From Bacillota bacterium (GTDB taxonomy: Bacteria > Sysuimicrobiota > Sysuimicrobiia > Sysuimicrobiales > Segetimicrobiaceae), in NCBI GenBank assembly GCA_021324255.1, contig JAJPJL010000106.1:1-46171 (forward strand): 46,171 bases of DNA, given 5' to 3'. Position 1 is the first letter of the stretch; each line of letters starts with the position of its first letter. Positions 34,496-46,171 of this stretch are shown piece by piece. Position numbers and translations under genes: made by a program. The notes under the pieces are model-generated. The model was not told the origin of the DNA and did not search any database. It saw only the letters and a program-made list of their open reading frames with translations.

Positions 34496-37213
34496 GTGCG
34501 CCAGCCGATGACGGGCGCCGACATCCGGGAGGCCTTTCTCCGGTACTTCGAGGGGCAGGGGCACACGCGCGTCCCGAGCGGCTCCCTGGTGCCGGCGGGT
34601 GACCCGACCCTGCTGTTTGCCAACGCCGGCATGGTGCAATTCAAGGATGTGTTCCTCGGGCTCGAGCAGCGGCCGTACGTGCGCGCCACGACCGCGCAAA
34701 AGTGCATGCGCGTGAGCGGCAAGCACAACGACCTGGACAGCGTGGGGCCGTCGCCGTGGCATCACACGTTCTTCGAGATGCTCGGCAATTTCAGCTTCGG
34801 CGACTACTTCAAGCGCGACGCCGTGCGATTCGCCCTGGAGCTCGTCACGGGCACCCTCCGGATCCCCCGGGACCGGCTGGTCTTTACCGTGTTCGAGGCC
34901 GACGACGACGCGGCCGCGGCATGGGCGGCGCTCGGGGTGCCGGCGGACCGCGTGGTGCGCATGGGGGAGCGCACGAACTTCTGGATGATGGGCGACGTCG
35001 GGCCGTGCGGCCCGACCAGCGAGCTGCACTACGACCGGGGACCGGAGGCGTGCACGTGTCGCCGGCCCGACTGCGGCGTCGCGCTCGACAACGGCTGCGC
35101 CCGCTGGGTCGAGATCTGGAACCTCGTGTTCATGGAGTTCAACCAGGCCCCGGACGGCAGCCGCACGCGGCTGCCCAAACCCGGCGTCGATACCGGCATG
35201 GGACTGGAGCGCATCGCCTCGGTGCTGCAGGGGGCGCCGACCAACTACGACACCGATCTGTTTCTGCCGATCCTCGACGGGCTGCAGACCCGCATCCTCG
35301 GCCACACCGCGGCGCAACGGGCGGCGCACACCATCGCGTATCGCGTGCTCGCGGACCACGGGCGGGCCATGACGTTCCTCGTCGCCGACGGGGTGACGCC
35401 GGGGAACGAGGGCCGCAATTACGTGCTGCGGATGATCATCCGCCGCGCGATGCGCTTCGCCCGCCGCATGCTCACCGCCGATCCGGGGCGGCGCCGGCCC
35501 GGGACGCCGGAACCGCTGCTGCCGCAGATCGCCGACGAGGTGATCGCCCTGCTCGGCGGGGCGTACCCGGAGCTGGTGGCGCAGCGATCGTATATTCACC
35601 AGGTCCTGGCCGCCGAGGAGGCCCGGTTCGAGCGGACCCTGGACGACGGGCTCGCGCGGCTCGATGCCCTGATCGCCGCCACCCGCGCCGGGGGCGGCGC
35701 GGTGCTGGCCGGCGCCGACGTGTTTCGGTTGTACGACACCTACGGGTTTCCGATCGACCTCACGCGGGACGTCGCGCGCGAACATGGCATGGAGGTGGAC
35801 GAGGGGGGCTTTCGCGCGGAGATGGACCGGCAACGCGAGCGGTCGCGCGGCGCGCTCGCGTTCAAGTTCGAGGCGCCCGACCGGACCGTGTACGCCGAGC
35901 TGCGGGACGCCGGGATCGAGACGGTCTTTACCGGCTACGGCCCGCTGGAGGCGGACGGCCGGGTCCTTGCCGTCATCGCCGGCGGCGCGCGCGTCCACGC
36001 CGCGGACGCCGGCCGTGATGTGGAGGTCGTCTGCGACCGCACGCCGTTCTACGCCGAGGCCGGGGGCCAGGTCGGCGATACCGGGACCATCCGCGGCCCC
36101 GCCGGGACGGTCACGGTGGACGACACGCAGCGCCCGGTGCCCGGGCTGTGGGTCCACCGCGGGCGCGTGACCGCGGGGCGGATCGAGACCGGCGACCTGG
36201 TGCGGCTGGCCGTCGACGGCGCGCGGCGCAGCGATGTGGCCCGGAACCACACGGCCACGCACCTGCTGCACAAGGCGCTGCGCGAGATCCTCGGCGAGCA
36301 CGCGCGCCAGGCGGGATCGCTCGTGGCGCCGGACCGGCTGCGGTTCGACTTCACGCACGTGGCCGCGCTCACGCCGGACGATCTCACGCGCATCGAGGAC
36401 CGCGTCAACGCGCAGATCCTGGCCGCGCTTCCGGTCGCGACCGCGGTGATGCCCTATCGGGATGCGGTCGAGTCCGGCGCGATGGCGCTCTTTGGCGAGA
36501 AGTACGGCGACGAGGTGCGGGTCGTCAGCATCGACGCGTATAGCCGCGAACTGTGCGGCGGCACGCACGTGGGCGATACCTCGGACATCGGCCTGTTTCT
36601 CGTGACCAGCGAGGGATCCGTCGGGGCCGGCACGCGGCGCCTGGAAGCGGTCACGGGCCGGGAGGCGCTCGATCGCCTGCGGGACGCACAGGCGAAGCTG
36701 CGGGACGCCGCGGCCGAACTGCGCGTGCCGCCCGAGTCGCTGCCCGAGCGCATCCGGCAACTCGATCAGCGGCGGCGCGCCGTGCAGCAGCGCGCGGAGC
36801 GCGCGCGTGCGCGAGAGGCGGCGCCGGATCTCGAGGAAGCGGTCCGGTCGGCCCGCGACGTCGACGGCATCGCCGTCGTGGGCGTGACGGTCCCGGGCGC
36901 CGATCAAGCGTCGCTCAGGGCGCTCGGGGACCGGGTCAAAGGGCGCCTGCCGGCCGGCGTCATCGTGGCGGCCGGCCGCGCGAACGGCCGCGTTGAGATC
37001 GTGGTGATGGCGACCCAGGGTGCGGTGGCGCGCGGCGCCGCGGCCTCGAAGATCATGCAGGCGCTCAACCGCCGGCTCGGCACCCGCGGCGGCGGACGGC
37101 CGGAGCTCGCGCAAGGGGGCGGCGGCGATCCGGAGCGCTTGGACGAGGCGATCGACGCGCTGCCGGAGATCGTGCGCGCGGTGCTCGCGGACACCGCCCG
37201 GGAGCGGCGGTGA
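34496..37213 (+). CDS. alaS: Alanyl-tRNA synthetase
   Basis: GTG 34496 (ATG 34508 is an alternative) gives 905 residues, a full-length AlaRS. The class II catalytic domain begins RYFEGQGHTRVPSGSLVPAG and has LLFANAGMVQFKDVFLG and KCMRVSGKHNDLDSVG. The editing domain has NHTATHLLHKALRE and the zinc-binding RELCGGTHVGDTSDIGLF. The C-Ala domain includes GGGRPELAQGGG near the end. The enzyme recognises the G3:U70 pair present in the tRNA-Ala encoded at 11.7 kb. The GTGA overlap with ruvX and the alaS-ruvX order are common. No T-box is seen in the short upstream space. Confidence 0.97.
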   Translation: MRQPMTGADIREAFLRYFEGQGHTRVPSGSLVPAGDPTLLFANAGMVQFKDVFLGLEQRPYVRATTAQKCMRVSGKHNDLDSVGPSPWHHTFFEMLGNFSFGDYFKRDAVRFALELVTGTLRIPRDRLVFTVFEADDDAAAAWAALGVPADRVVRMGERTNFWMMGDVGPCGPTSELHYDRGPEACTCRRPDCGVALDNGCARWVEIWNLVFMEFNQAPDGSRTRLPKPGVDTGMGLERIASVLQGAPTNYDTDLFLPILDGLQTRILGHTAAQRAAHTIAYRVLADHGRAMTFLVADGVTPGNEGRNYVLRMIIRRAMRFARRMLTADPGRRRPGTPEPLLPQIADEVIALLGGAYPELVAQRSYIHQVLAAEEARFERTLDDGLARLDALIAATRAGGGAVLAGADVFRLYDTYGFPIDLTRDVAREHGMEVDEGGFRAEMDRQRERSRGALAFKFEAPDRTVYAELRDAGIETVFTGYGPLEADGRVLAVIAGGARVHAADAGRDVEVVCDRTPFYAEAGGQVGDTGTIRGPAGTVTVDDTQRPVPGLWVHRGRVTAGRIETGDLVRLAVDGARRSDVARNHTATHLLHKALREILGEHARQAGSLVAPDRLRFDFTHVAALTPDDLTRIEDRVNAQILAALPVATAVMPYRDAVESGAMALFGEKYGDEVRVVSIDAYSRELCGGTHVGDTSDIGLFLVTSEGSVGAGTRRLEAVTGREALDRLRDAQAKLRDAAAELRVPPESLPERIRQLDQRRRAVQQRAERARAREAAPDLEEAVRSARDVDGIAVVGVTVPGADQASLRALGDRVKGRLPAGVIVAAGRANGRVEIVVMATQGAVARGAAASKIMQALNRRLGTRGGGRPELAQGGGGDPERLDEAIDALPEIVRAVLADTARERR

Positions 37214-37644
37214 CGCGCTACCTCGGCGTGGACCTCGGCGCGAAACGCGTCGGCGTCGCGCTGAGCGACCCGACCGGCATCCTCGCGTCGCCGCTCGTCA
37301 CGTTTGCGCACCGGTCGTTGCGCGAGGACGCCGCGCAGGTGGCGCGCCTCTGCGCGGCGCATGGCGTCGACCGGGTGGTGGTGGGGTGGCCGCGCAACAT
37401 GGACGGCAGCGCCGGTCCCGCCGCGCGGCAGGCGGAGGCGTTCGCGGCGCGACTTCGCGCCGACACCGGCCTGCCGGTCGAATTGTGGGACGAGCGGTTG
37501 TCGACCGTGGCCGCGGACCGGGCCATGATCCGCGGCGGCGCTCGCCGCGGGACACGGCGCGAGGCGCGCGACCGCGTCGCCGCGGCGGTCGTGTTACAGT
37601 CGCGCCTCGACGCGCAAGCGGCGCGCGGGTCGCCCGACGGGTAG
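37210..37644 (+). CDS. ruvX: YqgF/RuvX Holliday-junction-resolvase-like nuclease
   Basis: GTG 37210 overlaps the alaS stop; 144 residues. It has an RNase H-like fold with YLGVDLGAKRVGVALSDPTG at the N-terminus (first catalytic Asp in VDLG), VVVGWPRNMDGSAGP, and LWDERLSTVAADR (catalytic Glu). The C-terminal Asp is in RDRVAAAVVLQ. The family acts in pre-16S rRNA 5' processing and possibly DNA recombination. It ends the alaS operon. The DNA after it becomes unusually AT-rich, marking the promoter of the next unit. Confidence 0.94.
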   Translation: MTRYLGVDLGAKRVGVALSDPTGILASPLVTFAHRSLREDAAQVARLCAAHGVDRVVVGWPRNMDGSAGPAARQAEAFAARLRADTGLPVELWDERLSTVAADRAMIRGGARRGTRREARDRVAAAVVLQSRLDAQAARGSPDG

Positions 37645-37782: not shown

Positions 37783-37875
37783 CGCTTCTGTAGGGGCAAA
37801 CCCAGAGAGATCTGGGGACGCAAAGCCACGGGACAGGCCAGCGCGAGCTGGCAAGTCAGCCGGGTTGCCGGAGCG
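37783..37875 (+). ncRNA. Cyclic di-GMP class I (GEMM) riboswitch
   Basis: The architecture can be drawn completely. P1 is CGCTTC (37783-37788) with GGAGCG (37870-37875). GGGGCAAACC (37793-37802) leads into P2, CCCAGA/TCTGGG capped by a GAGA GNRA tetraloop (37801-37816). The invariant GACGCAAAGCC follows (37817-37827). P3 contains GCCAGC-GCGA-GCTGGC (37837-37852) and closes with GCCGGGTTGCC. These are the GEMM-I conserved blocks. The base equivalent to G20 of the Vibrio Vc2 aptamer is G, favouring c-di-GMP over cAMP-GMP. A terminator follows 10 nt later. GGTT(G)CCGG (37863-37871) could instead pair with CCGGAACC (37880-37887), a possible alternate fold. Confidence 0.93.
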
Positions 37876-37885
37876 ACGACCGGAA

Positions 37886-37921
37886 CCTCCCGTGAATGCG
37901 TTGCGGGAGGCTTTGTTTTTC
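37886..37921 (+). terminator. Riboswitch expression-platform terminator
   Basis: CCTCCCG (37886-37892) pairs with CGGGAGG (37904-37910), followed by CTTTGTTTTTC. It is positioned to control readthrough from the riboswitch into the sigma-factor gene at 38120. Whether ligand turns transcription on or off cannot be decided; the alternate hairpin overlaps its left arm by only two bases. Confidence 0.8.
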
Positions 37922-38119
37922 TCGCCCACGAGCCGCCCGCGCGCCACGGCCCGCGCTTTTTCCGTCCCCTTTGCTCTGGCTCTGCATCTCTGCTGCCCCC
38001 AGGAGTGCCCTGCCACGATCGCGTTCGATCTGCCGCGGAGACGCGGAGGCGGTACAGGTTGCCGCGCACGCCCACATGGCGGGCGGCAGCGTGCGGGTGC
38101 ACCGGAACGGGGGGGGAGC

Positions 38120-38902
38120 ATGGGCAGCACTGCGTTAGCCGCGAGGCAGGATGTGGACTCGGATGGACCGGGGATTCACGACGCGTTCCGGCAATACCGG
38201 CGGACCAAGGACGTTCGGCTCTACCATCAACTGGTCTGCCAGTATCTGCCGCTCGTCCGCAAGATTGCCCGGCGCTACGTGCGGCAATCGGTCTCCCTCG
38301 ACGACCTGATCCAGGTCGGCTCGATCGGCTTGATGACGGCCGTCAACACCTTCGACCCCGGGCGCAACGTCAAGTTCGAGACCTACGCCTACCACCACGT
38401 GGCCGGCGAGATCCGCCACTATCTCCGCGACGACGCGGACCTCATGCGCACGCCCCGGTGGGCCCGCAAGCGCTACGGGGAGATGAAGGCGGCCGCGGCC
38501 GAGCTGCAGCAGACACTCGGCCGGTCCGCCAGCCTCGCCGAGATCGCCGAGCACATGGAGCTCAGCGAGCCGGAGTTGCGCGACGTGCTCCGGGCCTACG
38601 GCGCGACGCGCGTCGAGCGGATCAACGATGAGGGCGCGGCGGGCGACGCGCCGCCGCAGCCCCGCCAGCGGTACGCGTCCTTTCAGCTACCGGTCGAAGA
38701 TCGCGTCATGCTGCTGCAGGCGATCGAGCGGCTGGCCGAGGTGCAGCGCAAAGCCGTCTACTACCTGTTCTATCTCGATCTCACGCAGAGCGAGACCGCC
38801 AAGCTCATGGGCATCTCCCAGCGGCACGTCTCCCGGCTGCTGGCCGCCGCCCTCAAGCGTCTCGCGCCGCTCGTGCAGACCGTCGGCGCCGACGGCGCGT
38901 AA
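38120..38902 (+). CDS. SigB/SigF-like alternative sigma factor 1
   Basis: ATG 38120 follows GGGGGGAG; 260 residues. Region 2 is LVCQYLPLVRKIARRYVRQS, then SLDDLIQVGSIGLMTAVNTF. Region 3 is GRSASLAEIAEHMELSE. The region 4 helix-turn-helix is MGISQRHVSRLLAAALKRL. There is no sigma-1.1, so it is a group 3 sigma of the SigB/SigF/FliA kind. It is the first gene after the c-di-GMP riboswitch and ~200 nt of leader, so its synthesis should follow c-di-GMP levels. It has a paralogue two genes downstream. No anti-sigma or anti-anti-sigma gene is adjacent. Confidence 0.93.
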   Translation: MGSTALAARQDVDSDGPGIHDAFRQYRRTKDVRLYHQLVCQYLPLVRKIARRYVRQSVSLDDLIQVGSIGLMTAVNTFDPGRNVKFETYAYHHVAGEIRHYLRDDADLMRTPRWARKRYGEMKAAAAELQQTLGRSASLAEIAEHMELSEPELRDVLRAYGATRVERINDEGAAGDAPPQPRQRYASFQLPVEDRVMLLQAIERLAEVQRKAVYYLFYLDLTQSETAKLMGISQRHVSRLLAAALKRLAPLVQTVGADGA

Positions 38903-38935
38903 TCGTCGATTCCGCTGAAAGGAGACCACGGGGTC

Positions 38936-39274
38936 ATGGGACCAAGGCTCAGCACCCTGCCGATCTACCCCATCCGCACCGCCGCGGCGCTCACGGGCGT
39001 GGAGCCTCGGCGGCTGCGCATGTGGGAGGTGGAATATCGCCTGCTGCAGCCGGCGCGGACGCGAGGGCATCACCGGCTCTACTCGATGAAAGACCTGGAG
39101 CTCATCCGCCAGATCCGGCGTCTCATCGAGGAGCAGGGGATGAGCCTGCAAGGCGTCGGCGCGTGGCTCGCCGCCCAGCCGCCCGACCCGCAGGACGACG
39201 GCGACGAGGATGCCGCGGAGTCCCAGGACCCGTCGCAGACGCCCGTGACCGCCGGCGAGCGGCGGAACGGCTAG
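38936..39274 (+). CDS. MerR-family regulator (HTH domain only)
   Basis: The 112-residue protein starts 33 nt after sigma 1, with AAAGGAG upstream. The MerR winged helix is clear: YPIRTAAALTGVEPRRLRMW, then EVEYRLLQPARTRGHHRLYS, with the GxxRxY wing. LIRQIRRLIEEQGMSLQGVG follows. The usual dimerisation/effector region is replaced by a ~35-residue acidic Pro/Gln-rich tail with no Cys, so metal or redox sensing is unlikely. It resembles the GlnR/HspR-sized members. It lies between two sigma genes and probably tunes their promoters. Confidence 0.9.
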   Translation: MGPRLSTLPIYPIRTAAALTGVEPRRLRMWEVEYRLLQPARTRGHHRLYSMKDLELIRQIRRLIEEQGMSLQGVGAWLAAQPPDPQDDGDEDAAESQDPSQTPVTAGERRNG

Positions 39275-39293
39275 CCGCCTCCCCGGTGTCCTG

Positions 39294-40127
39294 GTGACCG
39301 TGCGGGTCGACCATCGGTCGCCCACGGACGACTATCCGGCGCCCCCGCCGCCGGCGTCGTTCCCCGCCGCGGCGTCCGCGGCCGAGGACGGCATCCTCGC
39401 GCTGTTTCGCGAGTACCGGCGGACGCGCAGCGCCGATCTCTTCGAGGATCTCGTCTGCCGGTTTCTCCCGCTCGTGCGCAAGGTGGCCCACCGGTACGTG
39501 CGCCCGTCCGTGGCGCTCGAGGACCTGACCCAGGTGGGGACGATCGGCCTGATGCACGCGGTCCGGAACTTCGACCCGGATCGCGGCGTCCGGTTCGAGG
39601 CCTACGCGTTCAGCCACGTCTCGGGGCACATCCGGCACTACCTCCGCGACGACGCGGATACCGTGCAGGTGCCGCGGTGGGCGCGGAAGCTCTACGGCGA
39701 GCTCACGGCGGCGGTGGCGGCCCTGCAACAGGAGCTGGGCCGGACGCCCACGCACGCGGAGATCGCGGTCCGCATGAACACCACGGAAAAGGGGGTCGAC
39801 GAGATCATTCGGGCCTACGACTCCACGAGCGTGCGGTCCATCGACGACATCATTGCCGAAGCGGGCGTGCGGCGGGAGGCCATCACCCATCAGCGGTACG
39901 TGTCGTTTCAGCTGCCCGTGGAGGACCGCATCGTCCTGCTGCAGGCCATCGAACGGCTGGCCGACCTCCAGCGGAAGATCGTATACTACCTGTTCTACAT
40001 GGACCTCAGTCACAGCGAGGTCGCGGCGCGCCTCGGCATCTCGCAGCGGCACGTCTCGCGGGTGCTCGCCGCCGCGCTCAAGCGCCTCGCCGCGATGACG
40101 CATGTTGCGGACCTGCACCGTCGCTAG
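39294..40127 (+). CDS. SigB/SigF-like alternative sigma factor 2 (paralogue of sigma 1)
   Basis: GTG 39294; 277 residues. It is colinear with sigma 1: LVCRFLPLVRKVAHRYVRPS, LEDLTQVGTIGLMHAVRNFD, region 3 GRTPTHAEIAVRMNTTE, and region 4 LGISQRHVSRVLAAALKRL. Both share the SFQLPVEDR...LLQAIERLA stretch before region 4, showing a tandem duplication with the MerR gene between. A Pro/Ala-rich N-terminal tail of ~30 residues is extra. It is probably co-transcribed with sigma 1 under the riboswitch. Differences in region 2.4 and 4.2 would show whether the two recognise the same promoters. Confidence 0.92.
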   Translation: MTVRVDHRSPTDDYPAPPPPASFPAAASAAEDGILALFREYRRTRSADLFEDLVCRFLPLVRKVAHRYVRPSVALEDLTQVGTIGLMHAVRNFDPDRGVRFEAYAFSHVSGHIRHYLRDDADTVQVPRWARKLYGELTAAVAALQQELGRTPTHAEIAVRMNTTEKGVDEIIRAYDSTSVRSIDDIIAEAGVRREAITHQRYVSFQLPVEDRIVLLQAIERLADLQRKIVYYLFYMDLSHSEVAARLGISQRHVSRVLAAALKRLAAMTHVADLHRR

Positions 40128-40457: not shown

Positions 40458-40832
40458 ATGACGAGAACGCGAGAAATCCTGGACTCCATCGTCTCCGGCA
40501 CCCCCGGCGTCCTGGGCGCGGGCGTGCTCGCCATGGACGGGACGCCGATCGACGTGGTGAAGGTCGACGCGCATTTTCCGCTGGAGGCCGTGAACCAGGA
40601 GATCGCCACGCTGGTCAAGCTCCTGGTCTACACCTGCCGCAAGCTGCACGACCCGGCGTTCCACGACTTCATGATGAGCTGCGAGCGGTTCACCGTGCTC
40701 GTGGCGCAGCCGGCCGTCGACCGGTGCGTGGTCGTCTTCCTCGGGGGCAAAGCCAACGTCGGCACCGCGCGCGTGCAGCTCCGGCGGCACCTGCCGGCCC
40801 TGGCATCGGCGACGGAGACACTTGCGGGGTAA
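40458..40832 (+). CDS. Roadblock/LC7-type domain protein 1 (divergent)
   Basis: ATG 40458, with GAGGAG upstream; 124 residues. It begins MTRTREILDSIVSGTPGVLG, then AGVLAMDGTPIDVVKVDAHF, the alpha-beta-beta start of Roadblock/LC7 (MglB-like) folds. Helix EAVNQEIATLVKLLVYTCRK and strands FTVLVAQPAVDRCVVVFLGG follow, and it ends RVQLRRHLPALASA. In bacteria such proteins act as co-GAPs for MglA-type small GTPases that set cell polarity and pilus position. No MglA is in the window. It is followed by a second Roadblock protein and pilus ATPases. Confidence 0.75.
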   Translation: MTRTREILDSIVSGTPGVLGAGVLAMDGTPIDVVKVDAHFPLEAVNQEIATLVKLLVYTCRKLHDPAFHDFMMSCERFTVLVAQPAVDRCVVVFLGGKANVGTARVQLRRHLPALASATETLAG

Positions 40833-40858: not shown

Positions 40859-41230
40859 GTGGTCACAAACCTGACGGGGAGCCTCAAGGACATCCTGAAC
40901 GACCTCACGCACAAGGGGTCGATCGTCGCCGCCGTCGCGGTGAGCCGGGACGGGTTCGTCATCGACGGGGCGAAGTCGGAGGAGGTCGACCTCGACGCCA
41001 TCGGCGCGCTGGTGAGCAGCGCGATGCTGGCCTGGGAGGCCGTCGCCACGGAGATCTCGGCGAGCGACCCGCCGGACGTGGTGCTGGCCGAGTTTCCGGC
41101 CGGGCCGATCGCCGTGACCCAGGTCAACAAGGACGCGATGCTCGTGCTCATGGGGAGCCGCTTCTGCAACCTGGGCCGGATCCGGGTCGAGACCCAGCGC
41201 GCGCGCGCCGCGGTGGCCGAGTGCCTGTAG
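40859..41230 (+). CDS. Roadblock/LC7 domain protein 2 (MglB-like)
   Basis: GTG 40859 follows a GGGGGGTGG run; 123 residues. It reads VTNLTGSLKDILNDLTHKGS, then IVAAVAVSRDGFVIDGAKSE, the canonical Roadblock/LC7 opening (VxGAxVVSxDGLxID). DLDAIGALVSSAMLAWEAVA and AVTQVNKDAMLVLMGSRFCN complete the fold, ending GRIRVETQRARAAVAECL. It is more typical than protein 1. Two different Roadblock proteins in tandem suggest a heterodimer. Its end overlaps the TPR-PilB start by 10 bases. Confidence 0.85.
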   Translation: MVTNLTGSLKDILNDLTHKGSIVAAVAVSRDGFVIDGAKSEEVDLDAIGALVSSAMLAWEAVATEISASDPPDVVLAEFPAGPIAVTQVNKDAMLVLMGSRFCNLGRIRVETQRARAAVAECL

Positions 41231-43692
41231 ACCGCGTCGAAGGCGTGCGCGCCGCCGGCGACCGCGCCGGGGCGGACCAGGGCGTGCGGGACCGGCTCGC
41301 CGCCTACCGCGCCGCGCTGTCGCTCGCGGAGCACGACACCACGCTCGACGTCGCCGTATGGTTTCACGAGGGCGTGCTGCGCCAGCGCCTCGGGGATGCC
41401 GACGCGGCCGTCGCGTGCTTCAAAAAGGTCATCGAGCTGGCCCCGGACGACCCCTGGGCGTACTGGGAGCTCGCGGGGCTGTACGCCGCCCAGGCCGATG
41501 CGCGGCCGGCCGTGATGGTGCTCACGGCTCTCGGCGACCGCTGCCTCGAACGAGGCCGGTGGACCGAGGCGAACCGTGCGTTTGCCCGCGCCGCGGAGCT
41601 GGCGCCCGACGACGCGGACATCCTCAGGTCGCTCCGGCGCGCGGCGGAGTACGCGGGGCAGACGCGCCAGCTGGCGGCCATCGACGAGGCCATTCGCGCG
41701 GCACGCGCGCGGCGTTCGCCCGGGCCGCGCGCTCCGGAGGCGCCCGGCGGCGCGTCGCCGGCGACCGTCACGGACGGGGACGGCCCGTGGGCCGCGGCCG
41801 CCCCGGCGGACGCCGTGGAGATCATCGCCGGCCCGGCGGCGGGGATCGCGGACCCCGAGGTGGAGATCATCGCGGACTCCGCGCCCGTGCTCGCCGATCC
41901 CGCCGGGGACGCGATCGCGGCGCCCCCGGCGCCGGAGACCGCGCCGGCCGTGCCGGTCGACTCGCCCACACCCGACGGGCCGGCCACGCGGCAACGGTGG
42001 GGCGCGCTCCTCGGCGAGATCATCGTCCGCCAGGGCTGGGTCACGCCGGACCAGGTCAAGGAAGCGCTCAATTCCCAGCAGCGGAACGGTGCGCCGCTCG
42101 GCCGCATCCTCGTGAACATGCAGGCGCTGACCGAGGAGCAGCTGGCGATGGCGCTGGCGGTCCAGTGGAACCTGCCGTTCACCAACCTGCCCGAGCGGGA
42201 GGTCGATGGCGAGGCCGCGCGCCTCGTGCCGTCGTACATCGCCCGGCGCCACGGCGTCGTCCCCGTCCGTCGCGCCGGCAACCGCCTCGTCGTGGCGATC
42301 GCGGATCCCGCCAATGTGGTCGCGATCGACGACATCCGGCTGGTGACCGGCCTCGATGTGGACCTGGTCATTGCGAGCCCCGTCGACATCGCGCGGGTGC
42401 ACGGGATGGTCTACGGCGGTCAGGCCGACATCGAGGAGATTCTCCGCGGCTCGGTCGAGGCCGAAACGGTCCGCGACGCCCCCGCGGAGGAGGCGAGCGT
42501 CGAGCACCTCCGCGCGATGGTCGAGGATGCGCCCATCGTCCGGGCGGTCAACCAGATCCTCGCGCAGGCCGTGCTCGCCGAGGCCAGCGACATCCACATC
42601 GAGCCGCACGCCCACGAGGTCAAGGTGCGGTTTCGGGTCGACGGGATCTTGCAGGACTTCATGGCGCCGCCCAAGGCCGCGCAGGCCGCGCTCATCTCGC
42701 GCATCAAGATCCTGGCCAACATGGACATCGCGGAGCGCCGGCTGCCCCAGGACGGGCACATTCACCTCCGGACCCAGAACAAGGACCTCGACCTGCGGGT
42801 CAGCACGCTGCCGACCGTGCTGGGGGAAAAGGTGGTGCTCCGCATCCTGGACCAGTCGCGCACGCGGCTCACCCTGCCGCAGCTCGGCTTTGCCGCCGAC
42901 CTCCTCACGGCGTGGGAGAGCCTGATCACCAAGCCCTACGGCCTGATCCTGGTCACGGGGCCGACGGGGAGCGGCAAGACGACGACGCTGTACACGTCGC
43001 TGGCGCGGATCAACACCCCCGAGCGGAACATCGTGAGCGTGGAGGATCCGGTCGAGTACCAGATCCCGCGCGTCAACCAGGTCCAGGTCAACCCGAAGGT
43101 GGGGCTCACGTTTGCGAGCGGCCTGCGCACGATCCTCCGGCAGGACCCCGACGTGATCCTGATCGGCGAGATCCGGGACCGCGAGACCGCGGAGATCGCG
43201 ATCCAGGCGTCCATGACCGGGCACCTCGTGCTGAGCACCGTGCACACCAACGACGCGCCGAGCGCGACCACGCGGCTCGTGGACATGGGGGTGGAGCCGT
43301 TCCTCATCGCGTCGTCGCTGATCGGCGTGCTGGCCCAGCGGCTCGTCCGCGTCGTCTGCGGCCGCTGCAAGGAGGCGTACCCGGCGCCCGGCGACGTGGT
43401 CCGCCACCTGGGGCTCCCGGAGTCCGGGGCCACGCCGGTGCAGCTGTACCGCGGGCGCGGCTGCGACGCCTGCCGCAAGACGGGGTATCGCGGCCGTCTC
43501 GGCGTGTTCGAGCTGATGACGATGAACGAAGGACTGCGCCAGCTCGTGCTCGGCGGGCAATCCGCGGACCGGCTGCGCGAGGCGGCGCAGGCCGCGGGGA
43601 TGCGGACCCTGCGGCAGCACGGGATCGAGCGGGTGCTCGACGGCAGCACCACCGTGGACGAGATGCTGCGGGTCGTGTTCGTCAACGACTGA
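41221..43692 (+). CDS. pilB: TPR domain fused to PilB/GspE-type ATPase
   Basis: GTG 41221 gives 823 residues. An N-terminal TPR-like region (about 22-165) has DVAVWFHEGVLRQRLGDADA, ACFKKVIELAPDDPWAYWEL and NRAFARAAELAPDDADILRS. An Ala/Pro-rich linker (about 170-255) has repeats of VEIIAxxA. An MshEN-type domain (about 258-390) starts RWGALLGEIIVRQGWVTPDQ. The secretion ATPase core has Walker A GPTGSGKTTT (Lys586), Walker B LIGEIRDRE (Glu650), and zinc CGRC/CDAC (Cys713, 716, 748, 751). It powers type IV pilus extension or type II secretion. MshEN domains bind c-di-GMP in related proteins. The TPR fusion is unusual. Confidence 0.93.
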   Translation: MPVDRVEGVRAAGDRAGADQGVRDRLAAYRAALSLAEHDTTLDVAVWFHEGVLRQRLGDADAAVACFKKVIELAPDDPWAYWELAGLYAAQADARPAVMVLTALGDRCLERGRWTEANRAFARAAELAPDDADILRSLRRAAEYAGQTRQLAAIDEAIRAARARRSPGPRAPEAPGGASPATVTDGDGPWAAAAPADAVEIIAGPAAGIADPEVEIIADSAPVLADPAGDAIAAPPAPETAPAVPVDSPTPDGPATRQRWGALLGEIIVRQGWVTPDQVKEALNSQQRNGAPLGRILVNMQALTEEQLAMALAVQWNLPFTNLPEREVDGEAARLVPSYIARRHGVVPVRRAGNRLVVAIADPANVVAIDDIRLVTGLDVDLVIASPVDIARVHGMVYGGQADIEEILRGSVEAETVRDAPAEEASVEHLRAMVEDAPIVRAVNQILAQAVLAEASDIHIEPHAHEVKVRFRVDGILQDFMAPPKAAQAALISRIKILANMDIAERRLPQDGHIHLRTQNKDLDLRVSTLPTVLGEKVVLRILDQSRTRLTLPQLGFAADLLTAWESLITKPYGLILVTGPTGSGKTTTLYTSLARINTPERNIVSVEDPVEYQIPRVNQVQVNPKVGLTFASGLRTILRQDPDVILIGEIRDRETAEIAIQASMTGHLVLSTVHTNDAPSATTRLVDMGVEPFLIASSLIGVLAQRLVRVVCGRCKEAYPAPGDVVRHLGLPESGATPVQLYRGRGCDACRKTGYRGRLGVFELMTMNEGLRQLVLGGQSADRLREAAQAAGMRTLRQHGIERVLDGSTTVDEMLRVVFVND

Positions 43693-43710: not shown

Positions 43711-45303
43711 ATGGAACCGCAGACGAGGAGCAGCACGACCGTGACACCGACGGACGAGTCCATCGAGGCAACGATCCTGCACGGGTTCATCCAGGACAAG
43801 CAGCTCATCATGCTCGCGCTGCGCGAGGGCTTCCAGCAGGAGATGCTGCGCACGCCCGGGGCCGTGCGGCTCTGCAAGGCGGTGCTCGAGCTGTACAACC
43901 GGCCGAACAGCGTCGTCGACCCCGCGTCCGTCCGGGCGCATCTGGAGCAGACCGGGGCGCTCACCACCGCGATGGAACGGTACCTCGCGACCGTGCGCGG
44001 CACCCCGCCCGTGGACGCCGGCAGCGTGATGGCGCTCGTCGAGGCGCTGCGCGGCCGGGCCCGCCGGGACCGGCTCGGCGCGCTCCATGGCCGGCTCGGG
44101 CGGTTTCTCCACACCCAGACGCCGTCGGACGGCGACATCGCCCAGCTCGCGGCGGAGATGATCCGCGAGCTCGTGGAGCTCGGGCGCCACCGCATCCACA
44201 CGCACCTGCAGCCGGTGAGCGAGGTCATCGGCCGGCTCGCGGACGAGGCGGAGCGGCGCCAGGGGCAGCCCGGGGTCCTCGGGTATTCGCTCGCGCCGTT
44301 CGACCGGCTGACGACCCTGCTGTCGGGGTTGCGCCGGGGATTCTACTACGGCCTGGCCGGCGCGCCGCGGCGGGGCAAGACCAACCTGACGCTGCAGCTC
44401 GCCACGTACCTCGCGACGAACCACCACATCCCGGTGCTGTTCTATTCGTGGGAGCAGACGGCGCAGGTGCTCGGCGCGCGGCTCATCGCCAAGGAGAGCG
44501 GCATCAACCCCGTGGCCATCCTTAGCGGCCACGACGCGGATGGGCAACCGGTGGCCGCGCCGGTGCGGGCGGCCTATGAGCAGATGACCCGGTACGCCCC
44601 GTACATGTTCCTGATCGAGGGGGGGCGCCAGGACACGGTCGACCGCATCCGGGCGCACGCCTACAACGTCATGCAGGAGTTTGAAACGAGCGAGATCGCG
44701 CTGTTCTTCGACTACCTGCAAAAGATCCCGCTCGGGGAGTCGCTCGCGGACTGGAAGGCGCGGACCGACCGGATCTCCACGGAGCTGGCGGAGCTCAGCC
44801 TGGAGCTGAACGTGCCGATCTTCGCCATTTCCCCGCTGGACAAGGAAGGGTGCCGGCTCGACGAGCAGCCGCCGGACGACGAGGCCGACGCGTACTCGCT
44901 GTACCACCGGCCGACGATGCATCACAGCGTGGGCAGCGGCGACCTCGAGTACGACCTCGACGTGGCCATGGTGCTGGCCAAGGACTGGCGGGCCACCGCG
45001 GAGTTCGGGCAGTTCGTGGAAAACCGCGCCAAAGCGGCGAACGTCGATCCGGCGACGCTCCCGAAGCTCGACATCATCAACCTCCACATCGACAAGAACC
45101 GCGACGCGCCGGAGCATCCGGCCAGCATCATCCAGTACGCGTTCTTCGTCACGCTCAACAAGTTCGTCGAGCTCGACTACAAGCTGGAGGCGGAGTACCG
45201 TCCCGACTACCACGCGTTCATGAAGCTGCAGAACATCTACGCGCAGCTCACCGACACGGGTGCGCTGCCCGTGGCGGCGGGGCGCGCTCGAGAGGGGAGA
45301 TAG
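43711..45303 (+). CDS. DnaB-helicase-like RecA-fold ATPase within the pilus cluster
   Basis: The 530-residue protein starts at ATG 43711. The N-terminal helical domain resembles DnaB N-terminal domains: IEATILHGFIQDKQLIMLAL, then TPGAVRLCKAVLELYNRPNS, then PASVRAHLEQTGALTTAMER. The C-terminal RecA-like domain has LSGLRRGFYYGLAGAPRRGK with Walker A GAPRRGKTN (Lys223), VLFYSWEQTAQVLGARLIAK, and Walker B-like IALFFDYLQKIP. DnaB is the replicative helicase, but here it sits between two pilB genes with 18 and 2 nt spacing. It is probably a paralogue with a different job (pilus/secretion motor partner, DNA uptake, or KaiC-like regulation). Confidence 0.75.
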   Translation: MEPQTRSSTTVTPTDESIEATILHGFIQDKQLIMLALREGFQQEMLRTPGAVRLCKAVLELYNRPNSVVDPASVRAHLEQTGALTTAMERYLATVRGTPPVDAGSVMALVEALRGRARRDRLGALHGRLGRFLHTQTPSDGDIAQLAAEMIRELVELGRHRIHTHLQPVSEVIGRLADEAERRQGQPGVLGYSLAPFDRLTTLLSGLRRGFYYGLAGAPRRGKTNLTLQLATYLATNHHIPVLFYSWEQTAQVLGARLIAKESGINPVAILSGHDADGQPVAAPVRAAYEQMTRYAPYMFLIEGGRQDTVDRIRAHAYNVMQEFETSEIALFFDYLQKIPLGESLADWKARTDRISTELAELSLELNVPIFAISPLDKEGCRLDEQPPDDEADAYSLYHRPTMHHSVGSGDLEYDLDVAMVLAKDWRATAEFGQFVENRAKAANVDPATLPKLDIINLHIDKNRDAPEHPASIIQYAFFVTLNKFVELDYKLEAEYRPDYHAFMKLQNIYAQLTDTGALPVAAGRAREGR

Positions 45304-45305
45304 CG

Positions 45306-46171
45306 ATGGCCGCACGCGCGATGGACGACAAGCTGGTGCAGACGCCCGCGGCCGCGGAGCCGCGAGGGCGTCCCGCGGTCGGCCCGCGCCGGCGCCGGCT
45401 CGGGGAGATCCTCGTGCAGGCGGGGGTGATCTCGCTCGAGCAGCTCGCCGATGCGCTCGGCGAGCAGAAACGCGGGAGCCGGCACCGGGGCTTGGGCCAG
45501 GTGCTCGTGGAGATGGGGCTTGCCACGGAGCGCGGGATCGGTGAGGCGCTCGCGCTCCAGCTCGGATTGGAGTACGTCGATCTGCGCGAGGTGATCCCCG
45601 ACGAGGCGGCGATGCTGCTCCTCCCGGAGCACCTCGCGCGGCGCTTCCAGGCCATTCCCATCCGGCAGGAGGGGGACACCGTCACGGTGGGCATGGTGGA
45701 CCCGCTCGACGTGCTCTCGCTGGACGACATCCACCGGCGGATGGGGCGCCTGATCCGGCCCGCGGTGATCACGCGCGAGGACTTCCAGCGCGCGCTCACC
45801 CAATATCCCGCGCTCGACGAGAGCGTGGAGAACGTGATCACCGAGATCAAGGCCAAGGCGCGCCCGGAGGAGCTGGGCGTGGACCAGCTGCGCGCGCTGG
45901 TCGACGAGGCGCCGGTCGTGCGCCTCGTCAACATGATCATCCTGCAGGCGATCCGCCAGCGGGCCAGCGACATCCACATCGAACCCCAGGAGCACCGGAT
46001 GCGGGTGCGCTACCGGATCGACGGCGCGCTGTACAACGTCATGACGCCCGCGCGCGAGATCCAGGCGGCCGTGGTGTCGCGCATCAAGATCATGGCCGAG
46101 GTCGACATCGCGGAACGGCGCGTGCCGCAGGACGGCCGCATCGCGTACCGGGCCGAGGGGCGGGAGTACGA
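45306..46171 (+). CDS. pilB: PilB/GspE-type ATPase (3' truncated by window)
   Basis: ATG 45306, two bases after the previous stop; 288 residues are visible and the frame is open at the window edge. A basic Pro-rich leader is followed by an MshEN domain (RRLGEILVQAGVISLEQLAD, then GLGQVLVEMGLATERGIGEA, LALQLGLEYVDLREVIPDEA). The N2 domain begins VVRLVNMIILQAIRQRASDI, HIEPQEHRMRVRYRIDGALY and RIKIMAEVDIAERRVPQDGR. Walker motifs lie beyond the window. It is the closer match to ordinary PilB; the upstream TPR-PilB is its fused paralogue. Confidence 0.93.
   Translation, partial: MAARAMDDKLVQTPAAAEPRGRPAVGPRRRRLGEILVQAGVISLEQLADALGEQKRGSRHRGLGQVLVEMGLATERGIGEALALQLGLEYVDLREVIPDEAAMLLLPEHLARRFQAIPIRQEGDTVTVGMVDPLDVLSLDDIHRRMGRLIRPAVITREDFQRALTQYPALDESVENVITEIKAKARPEELGVDQLRALVDEAPVVRLVNMIILQAIRQRASDIHIEPQEHRMRVRYRIDGALYNVMTPAREIQAAVVSRIKIMAEVDIAERRVPQDGRIAYRAEGREY

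Follow-up and report, generated by a model that had tools for sequence, protein, structure and literature searches.

What is a relative of the replicative helicase DnaB doing between two genes for pilus motor ATPases? The question arises from a single open reading frame in the window, by which we mean the whole 46,171-nucleotide stretch of DNA that was analysed, and from the DnaB-like ATPase, here called DBL, that it encodes (Table 1). As the first-pass annotation of this DNA had pointed out, DBL is tightly packed between two pilB genes, 18 nt after the stop codon of the upstream gene (which ends at 43692) and 2 nt before the next ATG (45306). The upstream neighbor, TPR-PilB, has a T2SSE domain scoring 471 bits, and the sigma factor and MerR genes that lie farther upstream recur as neighbors in other families of the phylum. 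No primase, phage or replication gene lies near DBL, again as first described; the closest nucleic-acid gene is ruvX (37210-37641).

Table 1. Genes of the DBL locus and functional residues of DBL, in window coordinates.
Feature	Position	Strand	Remarks
Two sigma-70-family genes flanking a MerR-family gene	37865..40127	+	Just upstream of the Roadblock pair
Roadblock-like protein 1	40458..40832	+	No Pfam match; profile match to Roadblock 2 (96.3%, E 1.9e-9)
Roadblock/LC7 protein 2, MglB-like fold	40859..41230	+	39 bits (cut-off 23)
TPR-PilB (TPR + MshEN + T2SSE fusion ATPase)	41221..43692	+	Probable GTG start, overlapping the preceding stop
DBL (DnaB-like SF4/RecA ATPase, 530 aa)	43711..45303	+	ATG start
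Walker A GAPRRGKT, residues 217-224	44359..44382	+	GAPRRGK in 35/35; last residue T, S in 2
Catalytic Glu248, SWEQT motif (DnaB SLEMS)	44452..44454	+	Invariant
Walker B Asp334 (DYLQ)	44710..44712	+	Invariant
Pro375, motif H4 sensor position	44833..44835	+	P in 27/27 of the phylum, S in 8/8 others, Q in 7/7 DnaBs
DNA-loop V407-G410, equivalents of Geobacillus DnaB R381-G384	44929..44940	+	
Lys462/Arg464 finger (DKNRDAP)	45094..45102	+	Both invariant
Second pilB (MshEN + T2SSE)	45306..46171	+	Gene interrupted by contig end

The homology of DBL to DnaB extends from end to end. A helical N-terminal domain (residues ~14-160) precedes a RecA core (~190-490), the same domain order as in replicative DnaB, and a C-terminal extension continues to residue 530. 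Pfam DnaB_C matches DBL with 80 bits (cut-off 27), and the N-terminal DnaB domain alone reaches 13.8 bits, under its cut-off of 23. When an alignment of 17 family members was compared with canonical DnaBs by hhalign, residues 13-486 were aligned at an E-value of 3e-35, and the best match in an hmmsearch of PDB sequences was Geobacillus DnaB (119.8 bits, columns 8-481). These two results bear out the original description of an open reading frame for a full-length DnaB-type protein carrying GAPRRGKT, the profile-profile alignment spanning the whole of DnaB. No T2SSE domain (PF00437) was matched in DBL. An AlphaFold2 model built from three input sequences was weak (pLDDT 47), and a Foldseek search with it ranked only DnaBs at the top, with TM-scores too low for use; the fold assignment thus rests on sequence profiles.

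DBL is nevertheless distinct from the replicative helicase. It scores 107 bits against the TIGR00665 equivalog model, well short of the cut-off of 385.25, and the same genome encodes a canonical DnaB (360 bits) on contig C55 in the order ychF - rpsR - rplI - dnaB, to which DBL is 21% identical across 441 aligned positions. With DBL as the query against 386 genomes, full-length orthologues scored at least 317 bits and ordinary DnaBs at most 73, and a canonical-type dnaB match was found in nearly all of the genomes searched. In a phylogenetic tree the DBL proteins are monophyletic, set apart from DnaB by a long stem with a support of 0.95. DBL is therefore not the only dnaB of its genome, and none of the DBL loci in relatives shows a replication context. 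The scores and the tree mark DBL as a paralogue of DnaB, as the first-pass annotation had proposed, and as a second ATPase separate from the replicative helicase. Two observations concern other DnaB-type genes. In most genomes of the phylum (L083-L102) the canonical dnaB matches fall into separated profile pieces (1-33, 31-198 and 197-255) within frames of ~780-1490 aa, a pattern that suggests inteins; the dnaB of the window's own genome is uninterrupted. A 526-aa frame at G042:C165:2835-3434 (L113), in a genome without pilus ATPases, has a DnaB_C match of 79 bits and by score lies outside the DBL family.

The DBL family is widespread and conserved. Within the window's phylum the gene is present in 36 of 43 genomes, and the comparison with a congener (dN 0.017, dS 0.198, dN/dS ~0.085) indicates that it is under strong purifying selection; this retention and this ratio together argue that DBL is more than a chance occurrence. 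The phylum of G297 and G160 has it in 35 of 40 genomes, four of which (family f263) encode short divergent forms, and the phylum of G055 in 34 of 54. Additional members occur in G283/G147 and in G125, outside the lists for those two phyla, so that the family spans at least four phyla. The f263 relatives are ~400-450 aa long and have no N-terminal domain. The only one of them that was aligned, L135:8035-9309 (on the DBL-bearing strand), retains neither Walker A nor the catalytic Glu nor the finger residues Lys and Arg and is likely an ATPase-dead paralogue. Other members from the G297 phylum (L133, L134, L136, L138, L139, L140 and L141; 555-797 aa) possess a Zn-ribbon-like CxxC...CxxC N-terminus, and some of these carry a long insert.

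Is the position beside pilB conserved? Gene calls in the relatives were computed here, spurious antisense open reading frames of these GC-rich genomes being removed with a codon-usage model, and the contigs are fragmentary. In family f1, the genes occur on one strand in the order sigma - MerR - Roadblock 1 - Roadblock 2 - TPR-pilB - DBL - pilB - pilT - pilC. In families f2 and f5, TPR-pilB and DBL point away from each other, and DBL is followed downstream by pilT and pilC and, in f2 only, by pilB; in f2 the MerR gene separates DBL from pilB. In G028, DBL belongs to another pilus cluster, one that contains pilC, pilD, a pilin gene, pilM and a secretin gene. Thus, the link between DBL and pilus genes is kept through three arrangements: co-directional, head-to-head, and transferred to another pilus cluster. 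Family f4 has an intact pilus cluster without DBL, which is encoded elsewhere, unlinked. Outside the window's phylum, pilB is found four genes downstream of DBL in L068, and an MshEN protein and a TPR-Roadblock protein share the DBL cluster in L067. A PilB-type protein of 1046 aa, in which MshEN and T2SSE are joined to an ATPase domain of the histidine-kinase type at the C-terminus, is encoded two genes downstream of DBL in L134 (12589-15726) and L139, and two pilin-like genes lie near DBL in L140. In the family of G055, no type IV pilus-type gene is adjacent to DBL, and in that phylum the neighbors are housekeeping genes; this case and that of f4 weigh against the pilus link. Directly after DBL in L068, L070, L073 and L136, all outside the window's phylum, is a gene for a lipobox-bearing helical-repeat protein, possibly a pilotin-like partner.

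The presence and absence of DBL point to a specific partner. The TPR part of TPR-PilB is absent from only six of the 43 genomes of the phylum (G012, G023, G024, G025, G041 and G042); DBL is absent from these and from G016, so that the two agree in 42 of 43 genomes. G016 was rejected as a true exception: its contig terminates inside the gene that neighbors DBL in the sister genome G015, so that its DBL falls in an assembly gap. The Roadblock genes are absent from the same six genomes and from three others that are 68-78% complete. Since PilB-type ATPases in general (T2SSE) are present in 42 of the 43 genomes, what DBL tracks is not the type IV pilus in general but the TPR-PilB/Roadblock module, and this module, not pilB genes at large, is its partner signal. 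The losses are concordant. In genus g2 of family f1, DBL, TPR-PilB and the Roadblock genes were lost together while pilB, pilT, pilC and the sigma and MerR genes were retained; in family f7, sister to f5, the DBL module was lost along with the pilus genes. At least these two losses, and perhaps four, are independent events; a Fisher test of the co-occurrence of DBL and TPR-PilB gives P = 1e-6, a value that ignores ancestry. A DnaB-based tree places f7 beside f5 and f6 at the base, the placement of f3 and g2 being without resolution. The tie to a pilus module that had been suggested from the window is thus supported by gene order within f1, by linkage that survives rearrangement in f2, f5 and G028, and by co-inheritance with TPR-PilB. 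DBL very probably has a non-replicative function tied to this module.

The sequence of DBL bears on what that function might be. We surveyed 35 aligned family members (27 from the window's phylum and 8 from others) together with 7 DnaBs (Table 1). Because Walker A, Glu248, Asp334, Lys462 and Arg464 are invariant, ATP hydrolysis by a DBL ring with trans-acting fingers is expected. The motif H4 Gln of DnaB, however, is absent from every intact DBL member, Ala occupying the position in L132. This loss, and the disappearance of Walker A, catalytic Glu and finger from L135, would fit a protein that has ceased to be a motor and serves as an ATP-binding structural scaffold or timer, closer to the archaeal protein ArlH; we consider this unlikely, since apart from L135 no member departs from the catalytic Glu, the Walker B Asp or the Lys/Arg finger.

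The DNA loop has changed as well. In Geobacillus DnaB, R381 forms a salt bridge with single-stranded DNA, and E382 and G384 contact it through the backbone (PMC8421360). The residue equivalent to R381 is Val or Met in the window's phylum and Thr or Lys in other phyla; the window's DBL has P375, V407 and G408 in place of the DnaB Gln, Arg381 and Glu382, and the equivalent of the backbone-contact residue Gly384 is retained. Of the helicase-specific residues for which a comparison had been recommended, then, the Lys/Arg finger is preserved, and the H4 Gln and the loop residues Arg381 and Glu382 are gone. Replacement of the Arg that contacts single-stranded DNA weakens the case for DNA translocation as the role of DBL, and nucleic-acid binding may persist in those phyla with Lys at the contact position. 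DBL could, alternatively, act on nucleic acid as a regulator of pilus-gene expression or as a cell-cycle or replication sensor, away from the motor itself. The sigma and MerR genes at the same locus, the co-inheritance of DBL even where it is unlinked (f4), and the Zn-ribbon N-terminus in the G297 phylum are in keeping with such a role, which the lost H4 sensor, the altered DNA loop and the lack of a detectable DNA-binding domain in the window's DBL make distinctly improbable.

Ancestry from DnaB combined with pilus linkage also brings to mind a DNA helicase that acts when the pilus takes up DNA or when incoming DNA is processed during competence, and the Lys that some other phyla keep at the DNA contact and the retained Gly384 equivalent would suit a helicase of this kind. 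In the window's phylum, however, the side-chain contact defined in Geobacillus DnaB (PMC8421360) has become Val or Met. Moreover, the occurrence of ComEC does not match that of DBL: ComEC (PF03772) is missing from 12 of 12 f1 genomes, the window's included, nine of which carry DBL, and it is present in G012 and G041, which have no DBL. Outside f1, ComEC is present in most of the phylum. With an entire family lacking ComEC, DNA uptake is disfavored, a role in ComEC-dependent transformation is unlikely, and the suggestion in the first-pass annotation of a DNA-uptake factor fares poorly; we regard a competence helicase as a long shot. It is scarcely credible that DBL represents an extra or mobile replicative helicase that came from a phage or plasmid and lies beside pilB by chance, for although DnaB_C matches it and phage DnaB profiles match below their cut-offs, the top phage matches are too weak and partial (23-29% identity, coverage of at most 66%) to sustain a phage origin, the distribution is vertical and phylum-wide in several phyla, and the synteny is kept through rearrangement with no replication genes adjoining DBL.

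The best overall explanation, to which we assign a probability of roughly 0.6, is that DBL is a DnaB-derived RecA ring serving the TPR-PilB/Roadblock type IV pilus module. In this phylum DBL occurs only in genomes with that module, which suggests that a replication machine was given a new use beside a pilus motor. As an ATP-fuelled RecA-type ring, DBL would serve one motor module consisting of TPR-PilB, the PilB/PilT/PilC set and the two Roadblock proteins. From the retained trans-acting Lys/Arg finger we infer assembly into a hexamer. Contact with the TPR-PilB hexamer or its TPR arm may be made by the helical collar at the N-terminus of DBL or by the extension at its C-terminus. The DBL hexamer would dock on TPR-PilB and be gated by the Roadblock pair. 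The nucleotide state of DBL, read by the Roadblock pair, could then switch or modulate which PilB-type ATPase drives pilus extension. Whether DBL operates as such a ring partner at the motor is, in our estimation, evenly balanced. More tentatively, and with the odds against it, DnaB may have given rise in several phyla to a second RecA ring, stacked on a PilB-type hexamer and switched by Roadblock and TPR proteins, in a two-ring motor convergent with the archaeal ArlH-ArlI pair.

Among the open-access papers searched, we found none that links a member of the DnaB family to the motor of a type IV pilus. If the proposed reading is true, a replication motor has found a new role in a pilus machine and persists, as one family of orthologues, across at least four phyla, and it would provide an entry point to Roadblock control of pili outside Myxococcus. 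The family also calls for caution in annotation: DBL genes resemble replicative helicases in profile searches and are neither replicative helicases nor phage remnants.

How does DBL compare with known systems? With replicative DnaB (TIGR00665, PF00772 + PF03796) it shares full-length homology, domain order, Walker A and B, the catalytic Glu and the Lys/Arg finger; it differs in having GAPRRGKT rather than ARPSxGKT, in the loss of the H4 Gln and, in this phylum, of R381 and E382, in its C-terminal extension, and in its lack of a replication context. RadA/Sms likewise has a DnaB-type RecA core, but its matches to DBL are marginal (PDB hmmsearch E 0.28-0.31), and NCBIfam RadA falls far under its cut-off. 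The Myxococcus MglA/MglB/SgmX system resembles the window's module in that Roadblock and TPR proteins control a PilB-driven pilus; in the portion of its literature consulted, no DnaB-type ATPase is described, unlike in the DBL module. The closest functional precedent is archaeal. ArlH forms a RecA/KaiC-fold ring, and its gene adjoins that of the T2SSE ATPase ArlI; the protein binds the C-terminal domain of ArlI 1:1 and stimulates the ATPase activity of ArlI (PMC6011876, PMC8978795). ArlH/FlaH beside ArlI/FlaI and DBL beside TPR-PilB are both RecA-fold ATP-binding proteins whose genes are adjacent to one for a T2SSE-family hexameric ATPase, with which ArlH works and DBL would work, and DBL, as would be looked for in an ArlH-type gene, is both adjacent to and co-inherited with its T2SSE ATPase. 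ArlH is, however, KaiC-like, single-domain and without ATP hydrolysis, whereas DBL is DnaB-derived, carries an N-terminal domain and has its catalytic residues intact. DBL gave no match to the KaiC/ArlH family PF06745 at an E-value of 0.1, and no ArlH appeared among its PDB profile matches. Since DBL derives from DnaB and stands in the same genetic relation to its neighbor as ArlH does, the resemblance would be one of convergence. By this analogy, the best reading is that DBL would work as ArlH does beside ArlI but is of separate origin, which would make it, with TPR-PilB, a bacterial counterpart of the archaeal ArlH-ArlI pair.
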